Shown one piece after another: positions 533 through 18,362 of a stretch of 21,597 bases of DNA. The stretch is from a virus. The stretch is from positions 1-21,597 of the IMG/VR virus record IMGVR_UViG_3300035183_000129; one strand, 5' to 3'. Both the position numbers and the translations under genes were made by a program. Within the stretch, counting starts at the first letter, position 1. Each line of letters starts with the position of its first letter. The notes under the pieces were generated by a model, which saw only the letters and a program-made list of their open reading frames with translations, made no database searches and had not been told where the DNA came from.

Positions 533-2254
533 ATGGAACGGTTCGTCCGGACGACCAATCAGATCAAGACGGTCCAGATTCGAAAGGAAATGCTGGACGG
601 GAAAGAGCATTGGGTGGTGCCGATGGTGATGCTGGTCGAGGGGGTGCACAATGGGTCGTTAGGTCCCATTTACTATCCCGCCAGTGAATTGGCCAAAGTG
701 CCGGCAGTATGGAATCACAAACCGATCGTGGTCGAGCATCCGGTTTGGAATGGGGTGCCGGTGAGTGCGTGCGAACCGGTCATTTTGAACGCGAGGAAGG
801 TGGGGGTCATTCTCAATACGAAGTGGGAAGAGGGGAAGCTCAAGGCCGAAGCTTGGATTGATCCGATCAAGGCGAAACAAGTCGATCCTCGGATCATTGA
901 GGCGATCGCCAATCAGAAGGTGATGGAGTTGAGTACGGGGTTGTTCTTGGAAGAAGAACCGGTCAGTGGGACTTGGAACGGGGAGAACTACCAGTCGATC
1001 GCTCGGAATTTGCGTCCCGACCATTTGGCTTTGCTTCCGGATGGGGTCGGGGCATGTAGCGTAGCGGATGGAGCAGGATTTATCCGGAACGCGGCGGTGG
1101 TCGAGGTCAAGCTGAAGAAAGGGGAAGGGATTCGGAGTCGAGAAGAAGCCCAACAGTGGGGACGTCAGGTAGGATTCCATTGGGATCGACTCCAGGAAGA
1201 CGCTCGGGAGTTTCGCTTTCAACGGGAAGGATTCGCTTGGAACAGCCAGAACAAACGGCAGGAGGTTCAACTCAACGAGAGGTGTAGTGTTATGTTGGCG
1301 TCTTTGGAGACTTCATTGGGCCAGCGGTTCGATGCAGTGCAGAAGGCGATCCGCGAGAAGTACGGCGACAATGTTTGGTTGGTTGATTTGTTTGAAGATC
1401 GAGTCATCTACGGGGATGGCGATCGCCTCTTTCAGGTCAACTATACCATCAGTGAAGACGGGACAGTGACGTTGGAGGGTGAGACCGTCGAGGTCAAGAA
1501 AGAGGTGACGTATCGGGTGCTCGCCGTCATGAAGAAAGAGGCGGACGGCGAGCACCCGGCATCCCATTACCTCGTGGTGGAGGATCCTGAGAAGCCTTCG
1601 ACCTGGCACTTGCGCGTCAAAGATGCGGATGGGAATCTGGACCATCGCCTGATGGGCGCTGCCTGGGCTGCCTTGCACAAAGGGTTCCGCGGGAACAAAT
1701 ACGAGGGACCCCAGAAGCAGGAGGCCATTCGGAAACTGAAGGCGCTCTACAAGCAAGAAGGATTGGATCTGCCGAGTGAAAACTCGGAGGAAGAAAGGAA
1801 CAGCATGAAGGAAAAACTGATCGCAGAGATCCTCGCGGCGAACTCGGTATGGAAGGAGGAGGACCGTGAGAAATTGATGGCCCTGGAGGAGGGTGTGATC
1901 CAAAAGATCCGCAATTCTCTGGCTCCTTCCCAAGCACTGGAACCTCCCAAACCGCCGGCTTCGGTGGAGGAGTACATCGCCGCCGCTCCGGAAGGGATGC
2001 GGGAGGTCCTGGCCAACGGCTTCAAGGCTTACCAGGCCAAGAAGCAAGAAACCATCAAGACGATCCTGGCCAACAAGCGGAATCCTTTTACCGAGGAGGA
2101 GCTCAAGGCTAAGGATCTGAACGAATTGGAACGCCTGGCGCAGCTGGCGACTCCGGAACCGGCACCGGATTACCGGGGCCAAGCGCCGGTGAACCAATCG
2201 AAGAAGGAAGAGGAACCGCTCGTGGTGCCTCGACTGAGCTTCAAGAAGAACTAA
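533..2254 (+). CDS. DUF2213-type head maturation protease with C-terminal scaffold-like region
   Basis: This probably processes and scaffolds the procapsid. The first ~190 residues match the DUF2213 pattern I recall: MLVEGVHNGS, then WNHKPIVVEHP, CEPVILNARKVG, MELSTGLF, and RPDHLALLPDGVGACSVADG. The His of VEHP and the Ser of ELSTGLF are plausible catalytic residues of an HK97/herpesvirus-type prohead protease; this is inferred from the pattern. A middle block around residues 335-420 (STWHLRVKDADG to EGLDLP) resembles a DUF6582-like segment. The last ~150 residues are charged, helical and scaffold-like, ending in EEPLVVPRLSF. Its place just before the cement and capsid genes fits. A GTG at 518 is an alternative start, and an in-frame stop at 512 limits extension. 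Neither start has a good ribosome site, so the 5' end is uncertain. Confidence 0.8.
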   Translation: MERFVRTTNQIKTVQIRKEMLDGKEHWVVPMVMLVEGVHNGSLGPIYYPASELAKVPAVWNHKPIVVEHPVWNGVPVSACEPVILNARKVGVILNTKWEEGKLKAEAWIDPIKAKQVDPRIIEAIANQKVMELSTGLFLEEEPVSGTWNGENYQSIARNLRPDHLALLPDGVGACSVADGAGFIRNAAVVEVKLKKGEGIRSREEAQQWGRQVGFHWDRLQEDAREFRFQREGFAWNSQNKRQEVQLNERCSVMLASLETSLGQRFDAVQKAIREKYGDNVWLVDLFEDRVIYGDGDRLFQVNYTISEDGTVTLEGETVEVKKEVTYRVLAVMKKEADGEHPASHYLVVEDPEKPSTWHLRVKDADGNLDHRLMGAAWAALHKGFRGNKYEGPQKQEAIRKLKALYKQEGLDLPSENSEEERNSMKEKLIAEILAANSVWKEEDREKLMALEEGVIQKIRNSLAPSQALEPPKPPASVEEYIAAAPEGMREVLANGFKAYQAKKQETIKTILANKRNPFTEEELKAKDLNELERLAQLATPEPAPDYRGQAPVNQSKKEEEPLVVPRLSFKKN

Positions 2255-2270
2255 CTGAGGAGGAAATCCT

Positions 2271-2702
2271 ATGGCTGAGACGCCCAAACGCATTCATCTC
2301 ACTGGGAGTGGCCGGATTGAGGAGGGGACCGCAGGGGGTTCCATCACGCCGGGTCACTTGATTCAACTGAACTCTTCGGGGAACCTCGTCGTCCATGCGA
2401 CGGCCGGGGGTCCGGCGGAGAAAGCGTTCGCGCTGGAAGATGCTCTGCAAGGCAAAGAGATCGGAGACGCCTACAGTTCGGGAGATCAGGTCAGCTTCGT
2501 CTTGGCCGCTCCTGGAGACGTGGTGTACGCCTTTCTGGCTGCCGGGCAGAACGCAGCGATCGGTTCGTACCTCACCAGCAATGGCAACGGGGCGCTGAAG
2601 GTGGCTTCGGGCACGGATACGCGCCTGGCGGTAGCACTGGAGGCGCTGGACCTGACGGGCGTAGGGGCAACGACTTCGAGAATCCGGGTTCGGGTTCTGT
2701 AA
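2271..2702 (+). CDS. Capsid cement/decoration protein (DUF2190-like)
   Basis: A 143-residue beta-rich protein that likely binds the outside of the capsid lattice. It has the composition and motif order of small DUF2190-type cement proteins: an N-terminal GSGRIEEGTAGGSITPGHLIQ, a central KAFALEDALQGKEIGDAYSSGDQV, then VVYAFLAAGQNAAIGSYLTSNGNG and a C-terminal beta strand RIRVRVL. There are no membrane segments or cysteines. A strong ribosome site (GAGGAGGAAA) precedes the ATG. It lies between the protease and the major capsid protein, the usual place for cement proteins. Family naming is from memory of the motif pattern; a generic head protein is the alternative. Confidence 0.75.
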   Translation: MAETPKRIHLTGSGRIEEGTAGGSITPGHLIQLNSSGNLVVHATAGGPAEKAFALEDALQGKEIGDAYSSGDQVSFVLAAPGDVVYAFLAAGQNAAIGSYLTSNGNGALKVASGTDTRLAVALEALDLTGVGATTSRIRVRVL

Positions 2703-2720
2703 CAGAAAAGGAGGAGAACG

Positions 2721-3779
2721 ATGAGTGACTACATCTTGAACGGACAATCCTACGGGACGGTGGCGGCAGCCTTGATGGGCCACAACTTCGATCCCAGTGC
2801 CCTCCGGCCTTGGATCGGTACCGACGGGCGCCACTACTTGACCGCCAACCAAGAAGGGAAACCGGTGGCCGTTCCGGCGCCGGTGGCCAACGCCACGCTT
2901 CGGAAGGAAGAGTGGCAGTTGCTGGACACCGCGATTGTCGCGGCCGCCAAAGAACGCCTTCGCGTCGTGGCGGATCTGCGGGGCGCGGGTTTGGAATTCA
3001 ACATTCCGAACGGCCTCGGTAAGACGGTCCTCCAGACGGAGAACGTCGGCGACATCACCAACGCTCGGATCTCGATGGATCCGGCGGTGGCCGGGGAAGC
3101 TGATCGTCCGAAGTACGACATCGTCAACTTGCCGTTGCCGGTGATTCACAAGGACTTCTACTTCTCGGCCCGGCAGATCGCCACTTCGCGGAACCTGGGC
3201 GCTTCGCTCGACACTACGATGGCCGAGCTGGCAGCGCGTCGGGTGGCGGAGGAAGCGGAGAAACTCGCGTTGGGCACCGCCAGCTCGTTCACCTACGGGG
3301 GCGGGACCATCTACGGGTTCAAGAACTTCCCGAGCCGCATTACTCACACCATCACGGCCGCCACGGCCGGGGGCTGGACGCCGGCGACGCTGGTGAAAGA
3401 AGTCCTGGCCATGCGCCAGAAGTCCATCAACAAGTTCCACTACGGGCCGTGGGTGATCTACAACTCGCCCAAGTGGGATCAGTACCTGGACGACGACTAC
3501 AGCGCCGCCAAGGGAGATAACACACTGCGCCAGCGCCTTCAGGCGATCAGCGGGATTCAGGACGTCCGGACGGCGGACTTCCTGGGTGACACTTGGGACC
3601 TGTTCCTGGTCCAGATGACTTCCGATGTCGTCCGGATGGTGGTCGGCATGGATGTCACTACCGTCCAATGGGAGACGATGGGCGGAATGCAGGTCCACTT
3701 CAAGGTCATGGCGATTCTGGTGCCCCAGCTTCGCGCCGACGCGAACGGGAATACCGGTATCGTTCACGGATCTGTCTGA
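2721..3779 (+). CDS. Major capsid protein (HK97 fold, encapsulin-like family)
   Basis: This 352-residue protein should form the capsid shell. The central segment, from VNLPLPVIHKDFYFSARQ through ASLDTTMAELAARRVAEEAEKLALG, is the pattern shared by encapsulin/linocin-like major capsid proteins. It is followed by a loop giving YGFKNFPSR. The C-terminal half holds WVIYNSPKWDQYLDDDY, IQDVRTADFLGDTWDLFLVQM and VQWETMGGMQVHFKVMAILVPQL, typical of the P-domain and A-domain strands of this family. It has one of the best ribosome sites in the window (AAGGAGGAGAACG) and follows the cement protein by 18 bases. A strong hairpin follows downstream. Both fit a highly expressed late protein. Confidence 0.88.
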   Translation: MSDYILNGQSYGTVAAALMGHNFDPSALRPWIGTDGRHYLTANQEGKPVAVPAPVANATLRKEEWQLLDTAIVAAAKERLRVVADLRGAGLEFNIPNGLGKTVLQTENVGDITNARISMDPAVAGEADRPKYDIVNLPLPVIHKDFYFSARQIATSRNLGASLDTTMAELAARRVAEEAEKLALGTASSFTYGGGTIYGFKNFPSRITHTITAATAGGWTPATLVKEVLAMRQKSINKFHYGPWVIYNSPKWDQYLDDDYSAAKGDNTLRQRLQAISGIQDVRTADFLGDTWDLFLVQMTSDVVRMVVGMDVTTVQWETMGGMQVHFKVMAILVPQLRADANGNTGIVHGSV

Positions 3780-4203: not shown

Positions 4204-4598
4204 TCCGAACCAACGCTGCACTGGTTGCTGAGATCATTGAGGTTGATCCTAAGATCAACCTCGATCCGTTCATTCTATCCGCTTCGGTGTTGGTGGACGA
4301 AATCGAGCAGAACTCGAGTTCGACCCTGACACCGGAGCGGTTGGAATTGATTGAAAGGTGGCTGGCGGCTCACTTCTACGCCATGCGCGACCCGCGGGCG
4401 GAGACTGAGAGAGCCGGATCAGTGGGCGTGACCTATCAATCGAAAGTCGATCTCAATCTGTCGCTTTCCCACTATGGGCAGATGGCCATCGTCTTGGATA
4501 CCACGGGAACGTTGCGCCTTCTTTCTGAGGCTGGGAAGGTGCGTCGAGGGGCTTTCTGGTTAGGCCGAGAAGAAGATCGAGGCGATGTCGACCGCTAA
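4200..4598 (+). CDS. Head-tail connector (adaptor) protein
   Basis: A 132-residue, largely helical protein expected to attach under the portal as the first connector ring. The sequence shows the usual adaptor layout: an N-terminal helix with VAEIIEVDPKINLDPFILSA, then TPERLELIERWLAAHFYAMRDPRAE, then ERAGSVGVTYQSKVDLNLSLSHYGQMA, the beta hairpin plus helix typical of gp6/Ad1-like proteins. The start is GTG overlapping the upstream stop. The 3' end overlaps the next gene by 14 bases. Position between capsid and closure genes supports the role. The exact family was not searched. Confidence 0.75.
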   Translation: MIRTNAALVAEIIEVDPKINLDPFILSASVLVDEIEQNSSSTLTPERLELIERWLAAHFYAMRDPRAETERAGSVGVTYQSKVDLNLSLSHYGQMAIVLDTTGTLRLLSEAGKVRRGAFWLGREEDRGDVDR

Positions 4599-5265
4599 CT
4601 TCTGGGACCCAACTGGCATCTGGAAGGACCAAGATGCTATTCTGATCGGAGGGGGACCTTCTTTGAGAGGGTTCCCTTTCGAGCGACTCAAAGGTCGAAA
4701 TGTTATCGGCATCAACGACGCCTTCCGGCTCGGACCCGAGATCGTCAAGTTCAATTTCTTTGGGGACGCTGGATGGTGGATTCGGATTCGAGACGAGGCG
4801 ACTGCTTCTCCGATACCTTTCGTGACAAACTCACCGACGCTGTTCGATTGGAAAGTCCCCAACTTGTACAAGATGGACCGGCTCTTGAACGGCATCGGAG
4901 AGGGTCCGGTGTTGGGCTGGAATCACAACTCCGGCGCAGCTTCCATCAATCTCGCTTACACGATGGGAGCGTCTCGAATCTTCCTATTGGGGTTCGACCT
5001 CACCAACCAGAACTACCGTTCTCACTGGCACGACTTCAATGAGAACACGATCCCGCAAGAGTCTTTTGACCGCTTTCGGATCGGGTTTGGAACAGTAGCT
5101 GAAGGACTGGAAGGGAAGGTGAAGATCTTCAACGTTACTGACGGATCTTCAATGCTGTTCGTCTTCCCGCGGATAGATTTCGACACTTTCTGGGCGATAC
5201 TCGATGGGCATTATCACCAAGATGCGGAAGCAGAAGGCGGTCTGGTGGAAGAGGCTTTCACTTGA
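4585..5265 (+). CDS. DUF115/MptE-like putative nucleotide-binding enzyme in the neck module
   Basis: A 226-residue protein that resembles the DUF115 / 6-hydroxymethylpterin pyrophosphokinase MptE-like and glycosyltransferase-related group found scattered in phage genomes. Visible features are an N-terminal AILIGGGPSLRGFPFERLKG (glycine-rich GGGPSL at residues 22-27), then RNVIGINDAF, FNFFGDAGWW, and a middle NSGAASINLAYTMGASRIFLLGFDL, which looks like a second Rossmann-type strand-helix. Its substrate is unknown. It overlaps the connector gene by 14 bases and the closure gene by 62, so it is fully built into the operon although it is not an expected structural protein. Virion or host-surface modification is possible but speculative. 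Confidence 0.65.
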   Translation: MSTANFWDPTGIWKDQDAILIGGGPSLRGFPFERLKGRNVIGINDAFRLGPEIVKFNFFGDAGWWIRIRDEATASPIPFVTNSPTLFDWKVPNLYKMDRLLNGIGEGPVLGWNHNSGAASINLAYTMGASRIFLLGFDLTNQNYRSHWHDFNENTIPQESFDRFRIGFGTVAEGLEGKVKIFNVTDGSSMLFVFPRIDFDTFWAILDGHYHQDAEAEGGLVEEAFT

Positions 5266-6836: not shown

Positions 6837-7172
6837 ATGAAACTGAGTCTCTCGTTCCGACAAGAGCAGGTCACCATCGAGCAGGACGGGAAAGAGGTTC
6901 CGTACACCGTCCGCGAAATGACGGCTGCCGACCGGGACCGTTATCTGGACCACCTCACCAAGCGGATGGAGGTTGGGCCAGATGGTCGGCTGACGCAGAT
7001 GAAGGACGTTGTTGGGCTGCAATCCGAACTCTTGGGATTTTGTCTGCACCGAGATGGCCAGCGCGTCCCGGTGGAGGAGATTCAGCAATGGCCTGCCTCA
7101 GTGGTCCAAGCACTGTTCGACATCGCCCAGGACCTGAATCGGCTCAACGCTTCCCCTCCAAAAAACGCCTAG
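6837..7172 (+). CDS. Tail assembly chaperone G (zero-frame product)
   Basis: A 111-residue protein corresponding to lambda gpG. It reads VTIEQDGKEVPYTVREMTAADRDRYLDHLTKRM and ends SPPKNA just after a run of six A residues. It lies between the tube and tape measure genes, where the G/G-T pair is almost always found. The protein should coat the tape measure protein during tail assembly. Most ribosomes should stop at the TAG at 7170-7172; a minority would shift at 7160-7166 to make the longer form. The ATG follows the tube stop by three bases. Confidence 0.82.
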   Translation: MKLSLSFRQEQVTIEQDGKEVPYTVREMTAADRDRYLDHLTKRMEVGPDGRLTQMKDVVGLQSELLGFCLHRDGQRVPVEEIQQWPASVVQALFDIAQDLNRLNASPPKNA

Positions 7173-7486
7173 AGGGTGAGGAGCTGGCCTGGTACCGGGT
7201 CGCTTCTCACCTAGGAATCCCAGTCGGGGAGCTGCGTGAGAGGATTACTCTCACGGAGTTCCTCGGCTGGCTCGAATATCTTCACTTCGACGAGAGTCGA
7301 ACCACCAAACTCGACTTCTATCTGGCTCAGATCGCCGCGGAATGTCGCCGTGGGTGGGTGGCGCATCCGAAACAGGTGAAGGTCGAGGATTTCTTGATTT
7401 CTACCGAGCCTCCTCCGAAACCCAACCCGGAACTCTCCAAGGCGAAATGGCTCTTCGCCTTGGGGTTCCAACCTGAAAAGAACTGA
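6837..7486 (+). CDS. Tail assembly chaperone G-T, made by -1 frameshift
   Basis: The frameshift product joins the first 110 codons of G (to base 7166) to a -1 reading frame that continues from 7166 to the stop at 7484-7486, giving about 216 residues. The T part reads RLEGEELAWYRVASHLGIP, then EFLGWLEYLHFDESRTTKLDFYLAQIAAECRRG, closely matching the pattern of phage G-T C-terminal domains, and ends PELSKAKWLFALGF. The T part has no good independent start: the open frame back to 7040 is out-of-frame sequence within G. This is the standard mechanism for siphophage tail chaperones. The T domain is expected to recruit tail tube protein. Confidence 0.82.
7160..7166 (+). promoter_or_regulatory. -1 ribosomal frameshift slippery heptamer A_AAA_AAC
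   Basis: Bases 7160-7166 read A AAA AAC in the zero frame of the G gene, an exact X_XXY_YYZ heptamer. Slippage by one base lets both tRNAs re-pair on AAA AAA and opens the T frame (next codon CGC at 7166). The zero-frame stop TAG follows two codons later, at 7170-7172. Both the site and the downstream open frame are seen directly. Confidence 0.88.
7168..7215 (+). promoter_or_regulatory. Candidate frameshift-stimulating stem-loop
   Basis: CCTAG (7168-7172) pairs with CTAGG (7211-7215) and GTGAG (7176-7180) pairs with CTCAC (7206-7210), giving ten base pairs interrupted by a three-base bulge and closed by a 25-base loop. It starts only one base after the slippery heptamer, which is closer than usual. 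The upper stem, at nine bases, is a more typical distance. It is a plausible stimulator, but the energy was not computed. Confidence 0.45.
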
Positions 7487-10288: not shown

Positions 10289-10666
10289 GTGAACGTTACC
10301 ACGACCAATTCTTGGCCCGCTGAGCTACCGGCTCCTCGGTTGGACTATCATGGGGAGCCGTTCTACCAGAATTTGGTCAGTCCTGAAGAGGCTCCGATCA
10401 TTTTTCGTTCAAGGCGGTTCGTTCGACCTTATCCGGTCATTCAGGCTGTTTGGGTCCTCACAGACGAACAGTTCGGCACCTTCGAGACTTTCTGGGAGAC
10501 GAACCTCGGGCATGGTGTAGCTTGGTTCACTTTGGATCTCAGATATCCGAAGAACAGCTCTCTCTCGAATTGGGTGGTGAGGTTCGAGGGAGAATACCAG
10601 GCCGAGAAGTTGGACCAGAAGCTGTGGCAGATCACCGCCCCCTTGATCTTACTCCATGAACTTTGA
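10289..10666 (+). CDS. Minor tail protein, gpM-like position (distal tail), copy 1
   Basis: A 125-residue protein directly after the tape measure, the place of lambda gpM. It has the pattern of a phage family I recall here: a W-P-x-x-LPAP start (SWPAELPAPRLDY), a strand with RSRRFVRPYP, VWVLTDEQFGTFETFWETNLGHGVAWFTLDL, then VRFEGEYQAEKLDQKLWQITAPLIL. The order is a beta strand, an F..F..F helix, G.AWF.L, then W.I.A.L. It probably forms the joint between tail tube and tip. The start is GTG. A clear paralogue lies at 11608-12081. Confidence 0.68.
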   Translation: MNVTTTNSWPAELPAPRLDYHGEPFYQNLVSPEEAPIIFRSRRFVRPYPVIQAVWVLTDEQFGTFETFWETNLGHGVAWFTLDLRYPKNSSLSNWVVRFEGEYQAEKLDQKLWQITAPLILLHEL

Positions 10667-10979
10667 GACGAGACTCGTGGAAGACATCATCAGTCTGAAG
10701 AGGGATGTCAAGGAGATTCGAGAGTGCCTACTGGGTGATCGAATCGCCGGCAAGCCTGGTCTCATTCAACTGATTGAGGAAATTCGGAGAGAGATCTACG
10801 GAGACTCTAGTCGGCACCAGGTCGGGTTGATTGAGAGACAGGATGAACTTCGACAGATCTTGGAGGCCCTGGATCGACAGAAAGAAGCCATACGCTGGAT
10901 GGCGGTCGGATGGGCTGGTGCTGTCTCGTTGATCCTCTCCATCGCGTCCTATTGGATCAGGCACTTTCTAGGGAAATGA
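10656..10979 (+). CDS. Holin-like coiled-coil protein with one C-terminal membrane segment
   Basis: A 107-residue protein with an N-terminal charged coiled coil (LVEDIISLKRDVKEIRECL and EEIRREIYGD, then QDELRQILEALDRQKEAIR) and a single C-terminal membrane helix at about residues 81-103 (WMAVGWAGAVSLILSIASYW). This architecture resembles XhlA/hemolysin-type accessory holins, but many other membrane-anchored phage proteins look the same. It overlaps the preceding gene by 11 bases, and its stop overlaps the next gene's ATG (ATGA). It is therefore coupled to a putative hydrolase, compatible with a lysis or envelope role. That role is inferred from topology and position only. Confidence 0.55.
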   Translation: MNFETRLVEDIISLKRDVKEIRECLLGDRIAGKPGLIQLIEEIRREIYGDSSRHQVGLIERQDELRQILEALDRQKEAIRWMAVGWAGAVSLILSIASYWIRHFLGK

Positions 10980-11596
10980 GACGGGTCTTCATCTACGTGA
11001 ACGGCATCCTGACCTTCCCAGGTCGGAGTTCGAACTGGACCGGGAGAGCTGTCACTGCCACGCATCTCCTGACCCAGGCCCGAGCCGAGAAGGTAGAGTA
11101 TCTTTCCTTTCCTTCTCTCACAAGGCTTCTAGGACAGCGCCACCGCGTTAACCGATTGATTCGAACCATTGGATTCTACCGGGGATGGAAAATCACTCTG
11201 GTAGGTCATTCAAATGGCGCGGCAGTGATCGCGGATGCACTCAAACGACTGGACTGGTATCCGATTGACGAGGTGATCCTGTTCAGTCCAGCTTGCGGTG
11301 CGGACATGGAGCTGAACGGATTCGCCGCTGCATTGCGCGAGAAACGGTTGAGCAGGGTTCGAATCTACATCGCCGGCAAAGATTGGGCGATGCGGTTGGC
11401 CATGTCTTTCTTGGGGAAACTGTGCGGGTACGGTTCTCTTGGTCTCACTGGTCCTCGACACTTTGTGAGTCCGGCAGTTCAAGTGGTCGAGAAGCCCAAC
11501 TGGAACCATAGTGAGTGGTGGACGGATACCAACTTCCCTTGGACGATGGGTGAAATCCTAGGGAAGGAACTTGCTTTGAACCCCGAGGTCCAGTAG
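10976..11596 (+). CDS. Alpha/beta hydrolase (putative lipase/esterase)
   Basis: A 206-residue protein from the ATG at 10976, which overlaps the upstream stop; an upstream in-frame start at 10910 would lie inside the membrane-protein gene and is not favoured. It carries the nucleophile elbow ITLVGHSNGAAV with Ser79 in G-x-S-x-G. A second strand, DEVILFSPACG, follows. RVRIYIAGKDWAM offers Asp136 and NWNHSEWW offers His178, giving a plausible Ser-Asp-His triad in the right order. The N-terminus VFIYVNGILTFPGRSSNW has the strand and oxyanion-loop look of lipases. No signal peptide is visible. Lysis (LysB-like), tail-borne deacetylation or host-lipid attack are all possible; the substrate is unknown. 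Confidence 0.7.
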   Translation: MRRVFIYVNGILTFPGRSSNWTGRAVTATHLLTQARAEKVEYLSFPSLTRLLGQRHRVNRLIRTIGFYRGWKITLVGHSNGAAVIADALKRLDWYPIDEVILFSPACGADMELNGFAAALREKRLSRVRIYIAGKDWAMRLAMSFLGKLCGYGSLGLTGPRHFVSPAVQVVEKPNWNHSEWWTDTNFPWTMGEILGKELALNPEVQ

Positions 11597-12209: not shown

Positions 12210-13148
12210 ATGGCGCTGCAACTCTATCAGCACATTGACACTGGAGCCCCTGCGGCCAACGCGCGCGTGATAAGCGTGCTTCGCGCGTGTCTGGTCAACG
12301 GCTATAGTTCAAAGGCTGCGGCTGGATGGTCGGAAGCTTTCACTGGCACGAACAAAGCGGTGTTCAAGATGCCCGCGACAGCTCCGCGGCAACTTCACTT
12401 GCGGCTTGAAGTGTACAGCACCACTTCAACACGCTGGAACGGTTACGTTGACATGTCGGACATAGACACCGGAACTTACAAGTTTTTCAACGGTAACTAT
12501 ACTTGCTACGACGACACCGGTACCACAGGTTGGAAAGTGCTCGCGGATGACAAGACGGTAATTTGGATTCCACGCGGTACTGATTACGTCTGGCGCTGCT
12601 ACTATTTCGGTTACTTGAGAGATGAAGCGCCGGGAGACTTAAATCACGCTTGGTGCGGGGGCAATCAAGGTCTGGGAGGCTATCCGTCCACTGTAGGCTC
12701 TTTCTGGGCGGTGTATTCTGGCAGCAACCCGTGGGGGCAATCTGTCTATGGGCAACTGCTCGGTCCTTACGGCGAGTCGCTGGGTTCTACGGTTTATGCT
12801 ATCGGGACGACGATGATGGGCACAACGCATGAGGACCAAAGAGACAATCAAGAAGGGACACGATTCCCCGGCGCTCCTCCCAGCAACGGTGTCTATCAAT
12901 TCGCGAGGATGCCCATCACGGAAGCGGGAGACAACTACACGCCTTGCGTCTTGCGCGGCAACTTGCGCGGATTGGTATGGCCTTGTCACCGCTACTCGAC
13001 GTTGACTGACGATTTGACCATCTCCGGTGTCGGCCAATACAGCGGGTTCACAATCAGGATTCTGAAAGACGTGAAGGCCTTCGACAACATCACGAAGCCG
13101 GGGGAAAGCAATACGTTCGCTTTTGGTTTGGTAATCGGAGACACTTGA
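12210..13148 (+). CDS. Virion/tail structural protein, function unknown
   Basis: A 312-residue protein. The N-terminus LYQHIDTGAP, then VISVLRACLVNGYSSKAAAGWSEAFTGTNKAVFKMP, is a pattern I recall from phage tail-region hypothetical proteins, often annotated as virion structural proteins. The rest is Gly/Tyr/Trp-rich with beta-type periodicity (RLEVYSTTSTRWNGYVDMSD, WKVLADDKTVIWIPRG) and no membrane segment. Its arginine codons lean to CGC more than the neighbouring genes do, and G/C-rich runs are more frequent, suggesting separate acquisition. The next gene starts two bases after its stop. Confidence 0.6.
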   Translation: MALQLYQHIDTGAPAANARVISVLRACLVNGYSSKAAAGWSEAFTGTNKAVFKMPATAPRQLHLRLEVYSTTSTRWNGYVDMSDIDTGTYKFFNGNYTCYDDTGTTGWKVLADDKTVIWIPRGTDYVWRCYYFGYLRDEAPGDLNHAWCGGNQGLGGYPSTVGSFWAVYSGSNPWGQSVYGQLLGPYGESLGSTVYAIGTTMMGTTHEDQRDNQEGTRFPGAPPSNGVYQFARMPITEAGDNYTPCVLRGNLRGLVWPCHRYSTLTDDLTISGVGQYSGFTIRILKDVKAFDNITKPGESNTFAFGLVIGDT

Positions 13149-13149
13149 A

Positions 13150-13578
13150 ATGCCTGATACTGCCAACGACCGCTGCCCGGTTCTGGGTTTTGTCCCCAAG
13201 AAACCTTGGATTGCGTTTCAAATCAACAGCGAGCCGTTTGCTTTGGGCGGCCTGGACGCGACTACGGGCAATCCGGCTCCCAGCTTGAAACTGAGAGCCG
13301 GACGCTGGCCGGTGCGTCTTGCCGTCAAATCGGGCGCGCGGACGGTGAAAGTGGACGTGCGCCAACCGGACGCCACAGCGGCAAGGCCGGTGATGAGGAT
13401 CAAAGCAAACTCATCTATCGGTATCCCTTCCGATGTGACTGCCACCGCCGGAAGTCAAACGACCTGGCAGACAATTTCAGCCACCATCAATCCGACAGCC
13501 GACGGAGCGTTTGTCTTGGAGCTCGAAAATCCTGACCCGGAGAAACCATGTTGGTTCGACAACGTCAAGATCCAATGA
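13150..13578 (+). CDS. Small beta-sandwich-like virion protein, function unknown
   Basis: A 142-residue protein that begins PNDRCPVLGF-like (actual start MPDTANDRCPVLGFVPKK) and continues with PSLKLRAGRWPVRLAVKSGARTVKVDVRQP, MRIKANSSIG, TWQTISATINPTADGAFVLELENPD and CWFDNVKIQ. The alternating strands and the closing W-F-D-N-V-K motif resemble carbohydrate-binding or appendage-type beta-sandwiches, in which a final WFDNV strand is common. The family is not identified. It shares the atypical codon style of the upstream gene, so the pair looks like one cassette. Confidence 0.55.
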   Translation: MPDTANDRCPVLGFVPKKPWIAFQINSEPFALGGLDATTGNPAPSLKLRAGRWPVRLAVKSGARTVKVDVRQPDATAARPVMRIKANSSIGIPSDVTATAGSQTTWQTISATINPTADGAFVLELENPDPEKPCWFDNVKIQ

Positions 13579-13703
13579 TGCGATTTCGGGTGAACCTGGC
13601 GAGACTGACGGGGACTGCAACCACCCAAGGAGCAGGGAGGTTCGTTTGGTTCTCCTCCCTGCTCCTTTCTCTACATGAGGAAGCTCTAAAAGAGGCAGCA
13701 TGA
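13575..13703 (+). CDS. Possible 42-residue small ORF between cassette and tail fibre
   Basis: An ATGATGA overlap with the preceding stop opens a 42-codon frame whose own TGA overlaps the tail-fibre ATG (ATGA). These are the same coupling signals used across the operon. Against it, the sequence (MMRFRVNLARLTG onwards) is unrecognised and lies over a strong terminator-like hairpin. Its role may be simply to carry ribosomes across the hairpin to the fibre gene. Confidence 0.3.
   Translation: MMRFRVNLARLTGTATTQGAGRFVWFSSLLLSLHEEALKEAA
13627..13667 (+). terminator. Strong hairpin resembling an intrinsic terminator before the tail fibre
   Basis: A perfect 14-bp stem: AAGGAGCAGGGAGG (13627-13640) pairs with CCTCCCTGCTCCTT (13654-13667) around a 13-base loop, and the 3' side runs into TTTCT. 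The stem is stronger than needed, but the T-tract is short. With no obvious promoter in the 32 bases before the next start, it more likely attenuates than ends the late transcript. A ribosome translating the small ORF across it would disrupt it. Confidence 0.65.
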
Positions 13704-16333
13704 GAATTCTTGGAACTCTCAAAGATAGTCTGGGGAATCTGTTCAACGGCACGGTCAAATTCGTGCCGGCGATGCCTCCTCGTTTGGTAGATGGAGGAGT
13801 GGTTGTTTCTGACCCCATTCAGGTTCAGATAGTTGATGGAGTTCTGGACGTCACTCTCCTCGCGGGAGTCTATACGCTCTCTACCACTCCTCCGACCATG
13901 GTTCTCAGGGTTGTCGTTCCGGAAGGAGATGGGGTTCTGGATATCACTCAGATCAGCTCAGGATTCGCAAACATGAAGCCGGTTGATGTAGGAATTCCCA
14001 AAGGAGGCGATACCGATCAGGTTCTCGCGAAGAATTCCTCTACTGACTACGACGTTTCGTGGAAGACATTCACTGGCGGTGGTGGGGGTGTTCCGGAAGC
14101 GCCTCAAGACGGAAAGGCCTATGCACGCCGAAACGCTGCCTGGATTGATGCTGACGGCCGATATGTTCCTCCCGCCCGGCAGATCACAGCGGGAACTGGT
14201 CTTACTGGTGGCGGTAACCTCTCAGCTGACCGGTCATTCTCGCTGACTGGTCAGGCTCTAGCTTTGCACACCGCTGCAAACAACGGGTTTTTCACTCGCA
14301 CTGGATCTGGCACGGTAGCCAACCGCACCATTACTGGTGGAGCAAACATTTCAGTGACCAACGGTGACGGTGTTGCAGGTAACCCGACCGTGGCTCTCAC
14401 TGGTCAGATCCCAATCGCCAACGGTGGGACAGGCGCTTCGGATGCTGATACAGCGCGGGCGAATCTTGGTGCAGCACCGATCTCGCACACTCATCCAGCT
14501 GGTGACATCACTGGTCTTGCTTCCATTGCTACTAGCGGGAGTGCCGGTGACTTGACTTCCGGGACTGTTTCTGCTGACCGCCTCAATCTCACTACTGACG
14601 GCAACATGCTCCGCCGCTTCGGCGGCGTGCTTCAGGAGCGCACTCCATCCCAAGTACTCTCAGACATCGGAGCTGCTGCTGCGACACACACGCATCCGCT
14701 TTCGCAGCTTGAACAGAGCGGTGCGACCACTGGTCAGGTTCCGCAGTGGGACGGTACCACCTGGACGCCGGCGACTATTTCAGGAAGCGGCGGCATCCCG
14801 GAAGCGCCTCAGGACGGCAATGCCTACGCGCGCCGCAACGCCGCCTGGGTCAATGCCGATACCCGCTACGTCCCGCCCGCTCGCCAGATTACCGCCGGCA
14901 ACGGTCTCACCGGCGGCGGCGATCTCTCCGCCGACCGCTCGCTCGCCCTCACCGGCCAGGCCGCGGCGCTGCACAATCTGGCCACTAACGGCCTGATCAC
15001 TCGCACCGGCTCCGGCACGGTGGCCGCCCGCACCATCACCGCCGGAGCCAACATTTCCGTGACGAACGGCGATGGCGTGGCCGGGGATCCTGTAGTAGCC
15101 GTCACCGGCCTCGCCGCCATCGCCACCAGCGGGAATGCTGGCGATCTTACTTCGGGCACCGTCCCCGCCGCGCGCCTCAATCTCACTACTGACGGCAACA
15201 TGCTCCGCCGCTTCGGCGGCGTTCTGCAGGAGCGTACCCCATCCCAGGTGCTCTCGGACATCGGCGCGGCAATCGCGGCGGCCGGAGTGCCGGTGGGCGG
15301 TACGCTGAATCAAGTACTCAGCAAGGCCAGCGCTTCTGACTACGACACCTTTTGGCGTTCGATTCTCGAAGTGCCGAACGTCGGCGCTGGAGAGGTCGGC
15401 AAGGTGCTGAAGGCTACCGCGGTGGGGGTATATCAGTGGAGCATGGTCATGGGCTCCGCGGAGATCCTCATTACTGAGTATGATGCGCCTGGGAGTTACA
15501 ATTACAATTTCACACCAGGTACGGCCGGATTTTTCCTGATCTGGATCGTGGGTGGTGGGGGCGGTGGAGGATCGGGTCGGATCGGCGCTGCCGGGACGGC
15601 ACGCAGCGGCGGGGGCGGAGGGAGCGGAGGAACAACGGTTTTCGCCATTATGCCGCACTCTTTATTCTCGGCTGGCGCCATTCCGGTCAATATCGCCGCT
15701 GGCGGGCTGGGAGGCGCGGCGGTAACTACTGCGGATACCAGCGGAAACGCTGGTCTTACCTGCACCGCGGATACATCCTTCGGCGGGGACGGTAGTTCTG
15801 GTAACCCGGGCGTCCGCGCTCGAGGCGGCGGCGGAGGAGGTGGGGGTGGAACTTCATCGGGCGGTACTGCTGGGTCCGGTATCAACGGCGGTGTAGGTGG
15901 GTTTACATTCGGCCCAGGCTCGGGCGGTGGTGGGGGAGCAAGCGGCGGGGCAGGAAGTAACGCTGCATGGCCGAACACTGCTGCGTTGAATCTAGGCGGT
16001 GGAGGTGGGGGTGGCGTCTCGACATCTAATACGGCCTCCAATGGTGGGTCCGGGCGCTATCCTATTCAATTTCGCTCTGGTGGCAGCCAAGGTGCCGGTG
16101 GTTCAGGTGGAGTGAATGGCGGCGCGGGCACTTCAGGGAATTGGGGAGGATTCGGTTGGGGCAGCGGCGGTGGTGGGGGCGGTGGAGGAACTTCAACGGG
16201 CGGCGCCGGCGGCGATGGCTGGCGCGGTGGCGGCGGTGGTGGGGGTGGGGGTGGCACCAATGGATTTTCCAGCGGCGCAGGAGGCAAAGGCGGAGATGGA
16301 TACGCGCTGATCATTAGCGTGAAGGTGAACTGA
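13700..16333 (+). CDS. Tail fibre with internal duplication and polyglycine-rich C-terminal domain
   Basis: An 877-residue fibre, probably the receptor-binding appendage. The N-terminus (GTLKDSLGNLFNGTVKFVP) is a short beta domain that may attach it to the tail. The linker DTDQVLAKNSSTDYDVSW is common in phage fibres. The shaft holds two homologous units starting at residues 132 and 367 (PEAPQDGxAYARRNAAW). Each has YVPPARQITAG, a LTGGG motif and QERTPSQVLSDIGAA. Two HxH pairs (His263/265 and His330/332) recall metal-binding sites in trimeric fibres. Residues ~586-610 read TEYDAPGSYNYNFTPGTAGFF. From ~617 to 867 the chain is dominated by short polyglycine runs, resembling polyglycine-II adhesin tips such as phage S16 gp38. 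That comparison is inferred from composition. Confidence 0.85.
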   Translation: MRILGTLKDSLGNLFNGTVKFVPAMPPRLVDGGVVVSDPIQVQIVDGVLDVTLLAGVYTLSTTPPTMVLRVVVPEGDGVLDITQISSGFANMKPVDVGIPKGGDTDQVLAKNSSTDYDVSWKTFTGGGGGVPEAPQDGKAYARRNAAWIDADGRYVPPARQITAGTGLTGGGNLSADRSFSLTGQALALHTAANNGFFTRTGSGTVANRTITGGANISVTNGDGVAGNPTVALTGQIPIANGGTGASDADTARANLGAAPISHTHPAGDITGLASIATSGSAGDLTSGTVSADRLNLTTDGNMLRRFGGVLQERTPSQVLSDIGAAAATHTHPLSQLEQSGATTGQVPQWDGTTWTPATISGSGGIPEAPQDGNAYARRNAAWVNADTRYVPPARQITAGNGLTGGGDLSADRSLALTGQAAALHNLATNGLITRTGSGTVAARTITAGANISVTNGDGVAGDPVVAVTGLAAIATSGNAGDLTSGTVPAARLNLTTDGNMLRRFGGVLQERTPSQVLSDIGAAIAAAGVPVGGTLNQVLSKASASDYDTFWRSILEVPNVGAGEVGKVLKATAVGVYQWSMVMGSAEILITEYDAPGSYNYNFTPGTAGFFLIWIVGGGGGGGSGRIGAAGTARSGGGGGSGGTTVFAIMPHSLFSAGAIPVNIAAGGLGGAAVTTADTSGNAGLTCTADTSFGGDGSSGNPGVRARGGGGGGGGGTSSGGTAGSGINGGVGGFTFGPGSGGGGGASGGAGSNAAWPNTAALNLGGGGGGGVSTSNTASNGGSGRYPIQFRSGGSQGAGGSGGVNGGAGTSGNWGGFGWGSGGGGGGGGTSTGGAGGDGWRGGGGGGGGGGTNGFSSGAGGKGGDGYALIISVKVN
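14093..14676 (+). repeat. Tail fibre shaft unit 1
   Basis: This unit runs from PEAPQDGKAYARRN to VLSDIGAA. It includes an extra ~34-residue block, PIANGGTGASDADTARANLG through SHTHPAGD, that unit 2 lacks. Synonymous positions are moderate in GC (for example GGT, ACT and CTT are common), unlike unit 2. Confidence 0.8.
14579..14628 (+). repeat. 50-base exact direct repeat, copy 1
   Basis: This 50-base stretch, beginning CGCCTCAATC, is identical to 15173-15222, although the surrounding repeat units differ in many synonymous positions. It encodes the LNLTTDGNMLRRFGG segment. Identity restricted to this block suggests recent gene conversion or a recombination joint. Confidence 0.85.
14798..15269 (+). 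repeat. Tail fibre shaft unit 2 (GC-richer copy)
   Basis: The protein closely follows unit 1 (PEAPQDGNAYARRN, YVPPARQITAG, SVTNGDGVAG, QERTPSQVLSDIGAA) but the third codon positions are mostly C or G, in contrast to unit 1. It lacks the NGGTGA/HTH block. The 705-base spacing between unit starts equals 235 codons. Confidence 0.8.
15173..15222 (+). repeat. 50-base exact direct repeat, copy 2
   Basis: Identical to 14579-14628, 594 bases downstream of it in the same frame. Recombination between the copies would delete 594 bases (198 codons) and leave the fibre frame intact. Confidence 0.85.
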
Positions 16334-16608
16334 TGAATCTCGCTCTTCTCAACGAAATCGGCGAAGTGGTTACCTTAGTCAACCACGATGGGCGTGCCTA
16401 CCCATTGCCCGAAGGCTGGCGCTTTGAGGACCCAGCCAAGGTTTCTATCGAGACCATGCAGCGTTATTACGCACGCAGCCAGGAACAAGCGCCACCAGCA
16501 ACGGTGCCGGCAGCTGGTGATGCGGACTTGGCGCAGCGATTGGCGGCCCTCGAGGAGAAGACCCGCCACCTTGAAGTCATCCTGGCCCGGCTCGGCGTCA
16601 AGCCATGA
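16333..16608 (+). CDS. Small protein after the tail fibre, C-terminal coiled coil
   Basis: A 91-residue protein. The N-terminus MNLALLNEIGEVVTLVNHDG, then YPLPEGWRFEDPAKV, looks folded. Residues ~62-90 (DLAQRLAALEEKTRHLEVILARLG) are a clear leucine-heptad coiled coil. It begins within the fibre stop (TGATG). A fibre-assembly chaperone or a fibre-tip accessory is the usual role for genes placed here, but I do not recognise the family, so this is inference from position. Confidence 0.6.
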   Translation: MNLALLNEIGEVVTLVNHDGRAYPLPEGWRFEDPAKVSIETMQRYYARSQEQAPPATVPAAGDADLAQRLAALEEKTRHLEVILARLGVKP

Positions 16609-16886
16609 AACCGATTCTCTACACGCTCTTGGCCCTGCTATCAACAGGTTGCGTCACCCGTACCATCCGGTTTGAATATGCGGGTGGGAAGGATGGAGCG
16701 CATGTCTTGACAGTTCGGACGACAAGTTTCTTCAGCAACACCTCTTTGGAACGCCTTCAAGAGGATATTCAGACTTCTGAGTTCGTGTCCGGTAGTCTGG
16801 CCCAAGGCCTGATCATCCGACCCAATGAGGAAGCGCTGAAAGCCATTGTTGAAGGCGCTGTCAGAGCAGCTCTCTCGAAACCATGA
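16605..16886 (+). CDS. Phage lipoprotein 1 (lipobox LSTG-C)
   Basis: A 93-residue protein with a short lipoprotein signal, MKPILYTLLALLSTGC, and the acceptor cysteine at residue 16. The mature part includes RTIRFEYAGG, LTVRTTSFFSNTSLERLQEDIQTSEFVSGSLAQGLII and a C-terminal EALKAIVEGAVRAAL. No endopeptidase motif is seen. It might be an Rz1-like spanin partner, but it is not proline-rich as Rz1 usually is and no Rz gene surrounds it. A lysogenic-conversion, superinfection-exclusion or envelope-anchored role is also possible. ATGA overlaps link it to both neighbours. Confidence 0.65.
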   Translation: MKPILYTLLALLSTGCVTRTIRFEYAGGKDGAHVLTVRTTSFFSNTSLERLQEDIQTSEFVSGSLAQGLIIRPNEEALKAIVEGAVRAALSKP

Positions 16887-17356
16887 AACCCCACTGGCTC
16901 TCACTCATGCTGACTTCGCTCTTGATCGGATGCGCCTCCGCTTCGAAAGGTGCATCTCCACCCCTGGAACGAATCGAAGCACTGGCTCGATGGAGTGCTT
17001 ATCTGGCTACTCTGAATGTAGGGGTTCAGAACCGAGAGCCTCTACAGAAAGCAGCTGAGACCATCCGGGATCTCTCGAAATCCGCACCGTTGACCCCTGC
17101 CATGGCGATGGCCGCGCTTCACGCAGCTGGGGCGACTTGGCTCTCCTGTCCTGAAGGAGTGATTGCAGTGACAGGGGTGATCATGCTTGATGACGCAGCC
17201 TACGGTTACTTCACTATTCAAGACGAGCAGGCGATTCGAGCTCTACTCCGAGGGGTGGCGGATGGTATCTTTTTGGGGCTGGCTCTAGCTACGGGTGACG
17301 GATCGCCCCAAGAGAAACGGCTGGAAGAGGAAGCACTTAGACTGAGGTACCGATGA
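16883..17356 (+). CDS. Phage lipoprotein 2 (lipobox LLIG-C)
   Basis: A 157-residue protein with signal MKPHWLSLMLTSLLIGC, the lipidated Cys at residue 17, then a helical domain: LERIEALARWSAYLATLNV, REPLQKAAETIRDLSKSAP, MAMAALHAAGATWLS, and QAIRALLRGVADGIFLGLALATGDG. The helices are amphipathic with alanine-rich faces. I recall similar uncharacterised lipoproteins in phage genomes but cannot name the family. It follows another lipoprotein, so the two may work together at the envelope. Confidence 0.65.
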   Translation: MKPHWLSLMLTSLLIGCASASKGASPPLERIEALARWSAYLATLNVGVQNREPLQKAAETIRDLSKSAPLTPAMAMAALHAAGATWLSCPEGVIAVTGVIMLDDAAYGYFTIQDEQAIRALLRGVADGIFLGLALATGDGSPQEKRLEEEALRLRYR

Positions 17357-17595
17357 AAACGATGGCGAGACTCAGAATCGAGTACATCAAACGCCGAGCC
17401 GGAAAAGGACGGCAGTGGCAGTGGTACGTTCGGATCAGAAGAGGCCGGCGGATCTTACTGCACTCTGAGTTCTACAAGAACCTGAAGTCAGCCACGACGA
17501 TGATTCAGAACCTCAGGCGCAGCCTATCAGAGGGGCGATACTCAGAACACTACCTGACGCCTCTAAAGAGAGATCCTGAAGTCAAAGGGTCTTGA
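17353..17595 (+). CDS. Small basic DUF1508-like protein 1
   Basis: An 80-residue, strongly basic protein (RLRIEYIKRRAGKGRQWQWYVRIRRGRRILLHSEFYKNLKSATTMIQNLRRSL). The W-x-W-Y-V-R-I-x-x-G-R-x-I-L-x-S-E-x-Y-x-x-x-x-x-A-x-x-x-I pattern is that of YegP/DUF1508-type beta-hairpin proteins, which are usually a tandem of ~50-residue repeats. One repeat is present here. Its function is unknown in bacteria. Stop and start overlap with neighbours; a paralogue follows directly. Confidence 0.6.
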   Translation: MKTMARLRIEYIKRRAGKGRQWQWYVRIRRGRRILLHSEFYKNLKSATTMIQNLRRSLSEGRYSEHYLTPLKRDPEVKGS

Positions 17596-17789
17596 TGAAC
17601 CCGACCACCCAGATATCTTTTGAAAGAGCAGGTGGGAAATGGTACGCTGTAATCCGGCGCCGAAAGCGCATCTTGTTACGATCGTCTCCTTATCGGAGTC
17701 TGCGACGAGTGCAACAGGATCTCGATCAACTTCTTGCAGACCTCCGAGAATGGAGATTTCGGTGGATAACGCCTCAAAGAGAGACATGA
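17595..17789 (+). CDS. Small basic DUF1508-like protein 2
   Basis: A 64-residue paralogue of the upstream protein. KWYAVIRRRKRILLRSSPYRSLRRVQQDLDQLLADLREWRFRW aligns at W-Y, R, R-I-L-L, S, Y and L. The ATG at 17595 overlaps the TGA of gene 1 (TGATG); a TTG at 17592 is a weaker choice. It is Arg-rich and could bind nucleic acid or act as a monomeric beta unit; this is inference. The pair may arise from splitting of the two-repeat DUF1508 form. Confidence 0.55.
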   Translation: MNPTTQISFERAGGKWYAVIRRRKRILLRSSPYRSLRRVQQDLDQLLADLREWRFRWITPQRET

Positions 17790-17857
17790 AAATCCTGTGG
17801 GCTGTAGCTGGTGCTTTTCTTTGCCTTCATGTTGTGTTACTGTTTGTCCTGAAGTGA
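17786..17857 (+). CDS. 23-residue single-span membrane microprotein
   Basis: The ATG overlaps the preceding stop (ATGA), and the frame reads MKILWAVAGAFLCLHVVLLF to a TGA at 17855-17857. This leaves one base before the next ATG at 17859. The whole protein is one hydrophobic helix with a Lys at each end. Coupling on both sides in the operon's usual style argues that it is translated. It may be a lysis-related pore, regulator or membrane anchor partner for the lipoproteins, but this is not shown. Confidence 0.5.
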   Translation: MKILWAVAGAFLCLHVVLLFVLK

Positions 17858-17858
17858 G

Positions 17859-18362
17859 ATGCCAAACATCACCTATCAGGACGCGATCAAAGAAGCCTTT
17901 GCACTCGCACCGGCTGACCAGGTTATCTTGGACACCTTGGAGATTCGCCAAGGTACTGTCCAGCAACCGGTCTATTTGGTGAGGTCTTCTCGAGAGATCT
18001 ACGCCAAGACCGAAGACGCTCAGTTTCATCTCTTCATCCCAGTCGGGTTTCAGATTACGCTGCCGGCTGAGAACACTGAAGGATTCAGGTCGCTCAATAT
18101 CACCATCGACAACGTCGGGAAGAGCGTTCTGAACTTCATCAATACTTCAAAGAGCTACCGAGTGCCGGTGGAGGTAGTGTATCGTCCCTACCTCAACACT
18201 GACCTCGACACTCCTCAGATGAATCCACCTCTGGTGTTCTATCTGAAAGACATTCAGGTGACCCCTCAACAGATTGTCGGAAAAGCCACGTTCATGGAGT
18301 TGGTGAACCGAAAGTTTCCCTCTGAACTCTACACCCGACTCCGTTTTCCTTTCCTCCAATGA
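17859..18362 (+). CDS. DUF1833 family minor tail protein (gpL position)
   Basis: A 167-residue protein matching the DUF1833 pattern I recall: YQDAIKEAFALAPADQVILDTLEIRQG, then FHLFIPVGFQITLPAENTEGFRSLNITIDNVGKSVLNFINTSKSYRVPVEVVYRPYLNTDLDTPQM, and VGKATFMELVNRKFPSELYTRLRFPFL. The last segment (A.F..L.NR.FP...YT...FP.L) is diagnostic. It sits just before the NlpC/P60 gene, as lambda gpL precedes gpK, and should build the tail tip. Its stop overlaps the next start. Confidence 0.88.
   Translation: MPNITYQDAIKEAFALAPADQVILDTLEIRQGTVQQPVYLVRSSREIYAKTEDAQFHLFIPVGFQITLPAENTEGFRSLNITIDNVGKSVLNFINTSKSYRVPVEVVYRPYLNTDLDTPQMNPPLVFYLKDIQVTPQQIVGKATFMELVNRKFPSELYTRLRFPFLQ

Follow-up and report, generated by a model that had tools for sequence, protein, structure and literature searches.

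Between the tail fibre gene and the gene for a DUF1833 minor tail protein of this virus lie five small genes, two of them for predicted lipoproteins, and we asked whether the five form a single system and what role the lipoproteins might play. The window, meaning the whole stretch of DNA that was analyzed, is a 21.6-kb linear virus record with a siphovirus-like head and tail operon, including genes for capsid, connector, tail proteins, tape measure, fibre, DUF1833, NlpC/P60 and a J-like protein. A sequence-only reading had described five ORFs with ATGA or TGATG coupling at 16605–17857, and these are present as claimed. All are on the forward strand: lipA (16605–16886; 93 aa), lipB (16883–17356; 157 aa), the basic gene argA (17353–17595; 80 aa, pI 11.3), its basic paralogue argB (17595–17789 from the ATG, with an alternative TTG start at 17592; 64 aa) and a gene for a single-helix membrane peptide of 23 residues (17786–17857), referred to below as the 23-mer. 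The junctions of lipA/lipB, lipB/argA and argB/23-mer are ATGA and that of argA/argB is TGATG, while a gap of 1 nt separates the 23-mer from the DUF1833 gene (17859–18362, forward strand; PF08875, E 5.8e-31; phrog_396, E 4.9e-37).

A sixth coupled ORF of 91 aa (16333–16608, forward strand) lies between the fibre and lipA, overlapping the former by 1 nt and the latter by 4 nt, and coupling is unbroken from the fibre through this ORF, the block and the DUF1833 gene to NlpC. Since it runs on from fibre to NlpC, coupling does not delimit a five-gene module. A scan for sigma-70-type sites found no promoter-like site for the block, and no forward-strand terminator was found for it. With coupling continuous and neither kind of signal detected, the block appears to belong to a single late operon and not to be a separate unit.

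Judged by gene order among its relatives, the block fills a mosaic accessory slot of the late tail operon and is not one five-gene system. One relative, L004, has flanks 84%–86% identical to the window and is without the fibre and the 91-aa ORF. It keeps lipA (~90% identity) and an intact 23-mer, and lipB, argA and most of argB are gone. After lipA it carries ATGAACCCGA, which matches the start of argB, followed by TTGATAACGCCTCAAAGAGAGACATGA, which matches its end, and because the two are joined in this way, a deletion most likely removed lipB, argA and the central part of argB, leaving a scar. A different kind of virus, with another tail type, is represented by L010/L011, in which genes resembling DnaB helicase, terminase and portal were recognized by reading the translations, and in which the stabilization or head-closure-like protein (L010) is weakly similar to those of phage C75C1 and a Manatee Spring phage. 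The order in L010 is lipA (62%–67% identity), an extra small ORF, lipB (43%–45%) and a single arg gene (33%). Neither argB nor the 23-mer is present there, and lipA-lipB-arg adjoins an unrelated tail or head-closure gene. In two further relatives, L017 and L018, the upstream tail protein (84% identity in L017) and a 142-aa protein (79%–80%) are followed by a homologue of the extra ORF of L010 and then by other tail genes, with lipA and the arg genes absent.

The 142-aa protein (13150–13578, forward strand) has a conserved C-terminal domain, and its gene, because the upstream genes are shared while what comes after varies, can be placed as the left-hand anchor of the variable slot in L004, L010, L017 and L018. 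In the virus of the window, the DUF1833 gene is the right-hand anchor and the 91-aa ORF the left edge of the slot content. The losses in L004, the different gene set of L010 and the absences in L017 and L018 all speak against the proposal of five genes acting as one system. The suggested search for the five-gene order elsewhere recovered lipA-lipB-arg in L010, and the full order was not kept; absence of the order from other viruses, named beforehand as counting against the reading, thus did not hold for these three genes. We regard lipA-lipB-argA as the recurrent core of the slot, seen in just two independent lineages.

Other small ORFs occur at comparable positions. The extra ORF of L010 (5303–5488; weak match to phrog_32980, E 0.0017) and its counterpart in L017 (10426–10698) belong to a family that shares the slot and replaces lipA and lipB in L017 and L018. 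In phage C75C1, the head-closure gene is immediately preceded by a series of very small ORFs whose products are basic or single-helix (2014–3777 of record L028), the same position as lipA-lipB-arg in L010.

The claim of two lipoproteins agrees with the signals found. LipA has the lipobox LSTG-C (Cys16; mature length ~78 aa) and LipB the canonical lipobox LIG-C (Cys17), and a PS51257-like rule applied to all six frames of the window found a lipobox in no other ORF of 60 aa or more. First-order Markov random sequences of the same composition contained a mean of 0.75 such ORFs (range 0–3), against which a count of two is by itself weak evidence, but the two genes adjoin. With serine at −3, the LipA motif fails the strict pattern [LVI][ASTVI][GAS]C and passes a looser one. 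Its lipid-anchor cysteine and the residues that follow are conserved in three viruses (window, L004 and L010), and the preceding signal-peptide region differs. In LipB, a second cysteine, Cys89, is conserved.

Substitution patterns between the window and L004 indicate that translation and purifying selection are very probable for both lipA and the 23-mer, because dN is far below dS in each: 0.057 versus 0.87 for lipA (dN/dS ~0.07) and 0.060 versus 0.73 for the 23-mer (dN/dS ~0.08). In the latter, 21 of 23 residues are identical and 8 of 11 changes are synonymous (binomial p ~0.001, calculated by hand). The 23-residue membrane protein of the earlier description is retained as a hydrophobic helix (Kyte-Doolittle maximum 2.59) under selection. 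The predicted lipB and arg genes are supported by their homologues in L010.

The earlier reading could name no function for any of the five genes, and for LipA and LipB our searches found no named family. Pfam, PHROGs and NCBIfam gave no credible match for either protein, the PADLOC search returned nothing, and tblastn of LipA, LipB and the arg proteins against 50,697 GenBank phage records yielded nothing credible. Scanning genomes for LipA and for the neighbouring 142-aa protein, with short degenerate patterns that miss distant relatives, returned no match. Against the PDB, the LipA profile matched no chain at E up to 10, and the LipB profile gave only chance-level matches to unrelated proteins. 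The AlphaFold2 model of LipA was unusable (pLDDT 46). The LipB model was mostly helical and of moderate confidence (pLDDT 70, pTM 0.70); its fold search gave no PDB or viral match at E up to 0.001, and the best VIA-align Z of 6.2 is background for a helical model and uninformative. LipA and LipB therefore appear as a pair of unrecognized phage lipoprotein families, with partly conserved order, that are candidates of a known kind.

The two basic proteins had been called twin DUF1508-like proteins. The twinning holds, as argA and argB share 37.5% identity over ~46 residues (tblastn E ~4e-7 to 6e-7 against one small subject), and the resemblance to DUF1508 gained weak independent support. The sole Pfam match of the L010 arg protein was DUF1508 (PF07411; 16.9 bits, E 0.0061, below the cut-off of 22), a family that neither argA nor argB matched. 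When an HMM built from solved DUF1508 chains was scored against shuffled sequences, the real score was reached by 1 of 2000 shuffles for argA, 3 of 2000 for the L010 arg protein and 179 of 2000 for argB. Profile-profile alignment with hhalign gave P 0.0046 in the same register, but a probability of 7.6%. As a point of method, the E. coli YegP sequence used as a query was checked and aligned end to end with PDB 2k8e. Like the DUF1508/UPF0339 family (YegP, PF07411), argA and its L010 homologue share in register the pattern W-Y-x-R ... I/V-L-x-x-S-E-x-Y ... I/V; unlike that family, the arg proteins score below the Pfam cut-off, reach only the low profile-profile probability above and have a pI above 11. 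On this basis we term the pair weakly DUF1508-like, not DUF1508. A candidate third paralogue in L008 (2845–2958, E 3e-4) was rejected because its frame differs from that of the tail ORF that contains it.

Since the lipoprotein pair is kept next to unrelated structural genes in two kinds of phage, the host envelope is a more likely site of action for LipA and LipB than the virion. Phage exclusion lipoproteins are encoded beside receptor-binding or gpJ genes and act on outer-membrane receptors from the periplasm (PMC9586334; PMC12685063). The Llp gene lies next to the pb5 gene, on its downstream side, coliphage exclusion lipoproteins are encoded directly downstream of gpJ (PMC9586334), and Llp, like Rtp45, is a small lipoprotein of the periplasm (PMC12685063). 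By analogy with T5 Llp, the reading that we tentatively prefer is that LipA and LipB are late-expressed, probably outer-membrane lipoproteins that would block re-adsorption. They would be made late in infection, placed in the outer membrane and bind one or more host outer-membrane proteins from inside; the shielded receptor would then keep new phage from adsorbing to doomed cells or post-lysis debris, as with T5 Llp and Rtp45. The outer-membrane location, receptor binding and exclusion are what we infer for the pair, and the basic DUF1508-like proteins and the 23-mer would be separate accessory genes of the same slot. This suggestion draws on the lipoboxes, the size of LipA and the position beside tail-fibre and tail-tip genes, the block being downstream of the fibre gene and upstream of the J-like gene. 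Like Llp (T5), Cor (T1, phi80 and relatives) and Rtp45 (Rtp), LipA is a small phage protein with an N-terminal lipobox, encoded beside tail-tip or putative receptor-binding genes. Unlike in those systems, two lipoproteins occur in tandem, LipB is larger than known exclusion lipoproteins (~141 aa when mature), the late operon shows no promoter-like site of their own, no sequence match to LipA or LipB is detectable, and LipA is not tied to the neighbouring tail protein. Co-inheritance of LipA with the putative receptor-binding tail protein was tested and not supported, as L004 has LipA at ~90% identity but the tail protein at 26%, and L017 has the tail protein at 84% but no LipA. Also counting against exclusion, the T5 paper describes exclusion proteins as produced early, and no separate promoter-like site was seen for the block.

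The position of the block can also be read against exclusion, because in three annotated relatives it holds a lysis cassette, and for this reason lysis comes close behind. In the Stenotrophomonas phages Bhz60 and Summit and the Xanthomonas phage FoX4, a relative of the tail protein at 12210–13148 and a fibre are directly followed by holin and endolysin genes, with spanin genes also in Bhz60 and Summit and one lipoprotein in Bhz60. LipA, LipB or both might accordingly be lysis accessories in outer-membrane disruption, o-spanin-like or spanin-associated, with the 23-mer as a small holin or lysis regulator, an assignment that we consider somewhat doubtful. O-spanins are the other precedent for an envelope-acting phage lipoprotein (PMC6139136), as the o-spanin of two-component spanins (Rz/Rz1 type) is a phage lipoprotein of the outer membrane. 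The second conserved cysteine of LipB fits such a role, and carriage of the genes by viruses with two kinds of tail points to a function that is host-specific and directed at the envelope. The L010 LipB matches Rz-like spanin PHROGs weakly (E 0.04–0.05), through its signal peptide and Pro-rich start alone. For LipA and LipB, no Llp- or Rz-type sequence match was found. Unlike two-component spanins, the block has no recognized endolysin and no i-spanin-type ORF with an N-terminal helix and periplasmic coiled coil, and neither lipoprotein has a penta-proline region, LipA having no Pro-rich region at all. A hydropathy scan of the window genes found no partner with an N-terminal transmembrane helix and periplasmic domain in the block, although the record is a fragment and one may lie elsewhere. 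Also speaking against a lysis role, L004 has LipA without LipB, and L010 is missing the 23-mer.

A slot whose content varies in every relative (window, L004, L010, L017/L018), even to an extra gene between lipA and lipB in L010, could simply gather small genes without a common function (morons). We think this unlikely, as chance gain would rarely keep the lipA-lipB-arg order between the window and so distant a virus as L010, and selection on LipA is strongly purifying. Quite unlikely, in our estimate, is that LipA and LipB, with the DUF1508-like partner, form a two-lipoprotein envelope-modifying unit common to phages of different tail type and related hosts, achieving exclusion or outer-membrane disruption in a manner unlike Llp or spanins. 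The location of the genes amid the late tail genes, with the fibre on one side and tail-tip genes on the other, would suit tail-tip lipoproteins that touch the host envelope during DNA entry. This is improbable, given that the same genes stand beside unrelated structural genes in L010, that L017 and L018 have the same upstream tail genes but no lipA, and that lipid-modified proteins leave the assembly compartment by export. Among the roles offered by the sequence-only reading, exclusion and lysis therefore still lead and virion-envelope contact is disfavoured. Should LipA and LipB prove to be factors of exclusion or lysis, two unrecognized lipoprotein families would join a class with few solved receptors and mechanisms, and the slot would mark where to seek such genes among phages that have not been cultured; as mere passengers, they would make an ordinary finding.

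Several other genes in the window and its relatives were noted. Among the head genes, the product of 4585–5265 strongly matches phrog_4603, named alpha-2,3-sialyltransferase (E 1.9e-28). Before the tape measure gene, two overlapping ORFs, 6837–7172 and 7040–7486 (in another frame), resemble a tail chaperone pair of the frameshifted G/GT kind. The region 10656–11596 encodes a 107-aa coiled-coil-like protein whose C-terminal stretch is hydrophobic and then a 206-aa alpha/beta-hydrolase-like protein (GHSNG; sub-threshold Pfam matches), and relatives carry a GDSL/SGNH hydrolase in the tail region. The fibre (13700–16333; 877 aa) contains internal repeats, and its C-terminal part is very rich in glycine. 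A virus 99.96% identical to the window (L002/L008) reaches past J to QueC and a gene on the other strand that, by reading of its sequence, appears DUF932-like, its PHROG having no name. The QueC-like gene (L008 1020–1724; phrog_1550, E 1.9e-64), which runs in the opposite direction to the tail genes, suggests 7-deazaguanine DNA modification in that virus.
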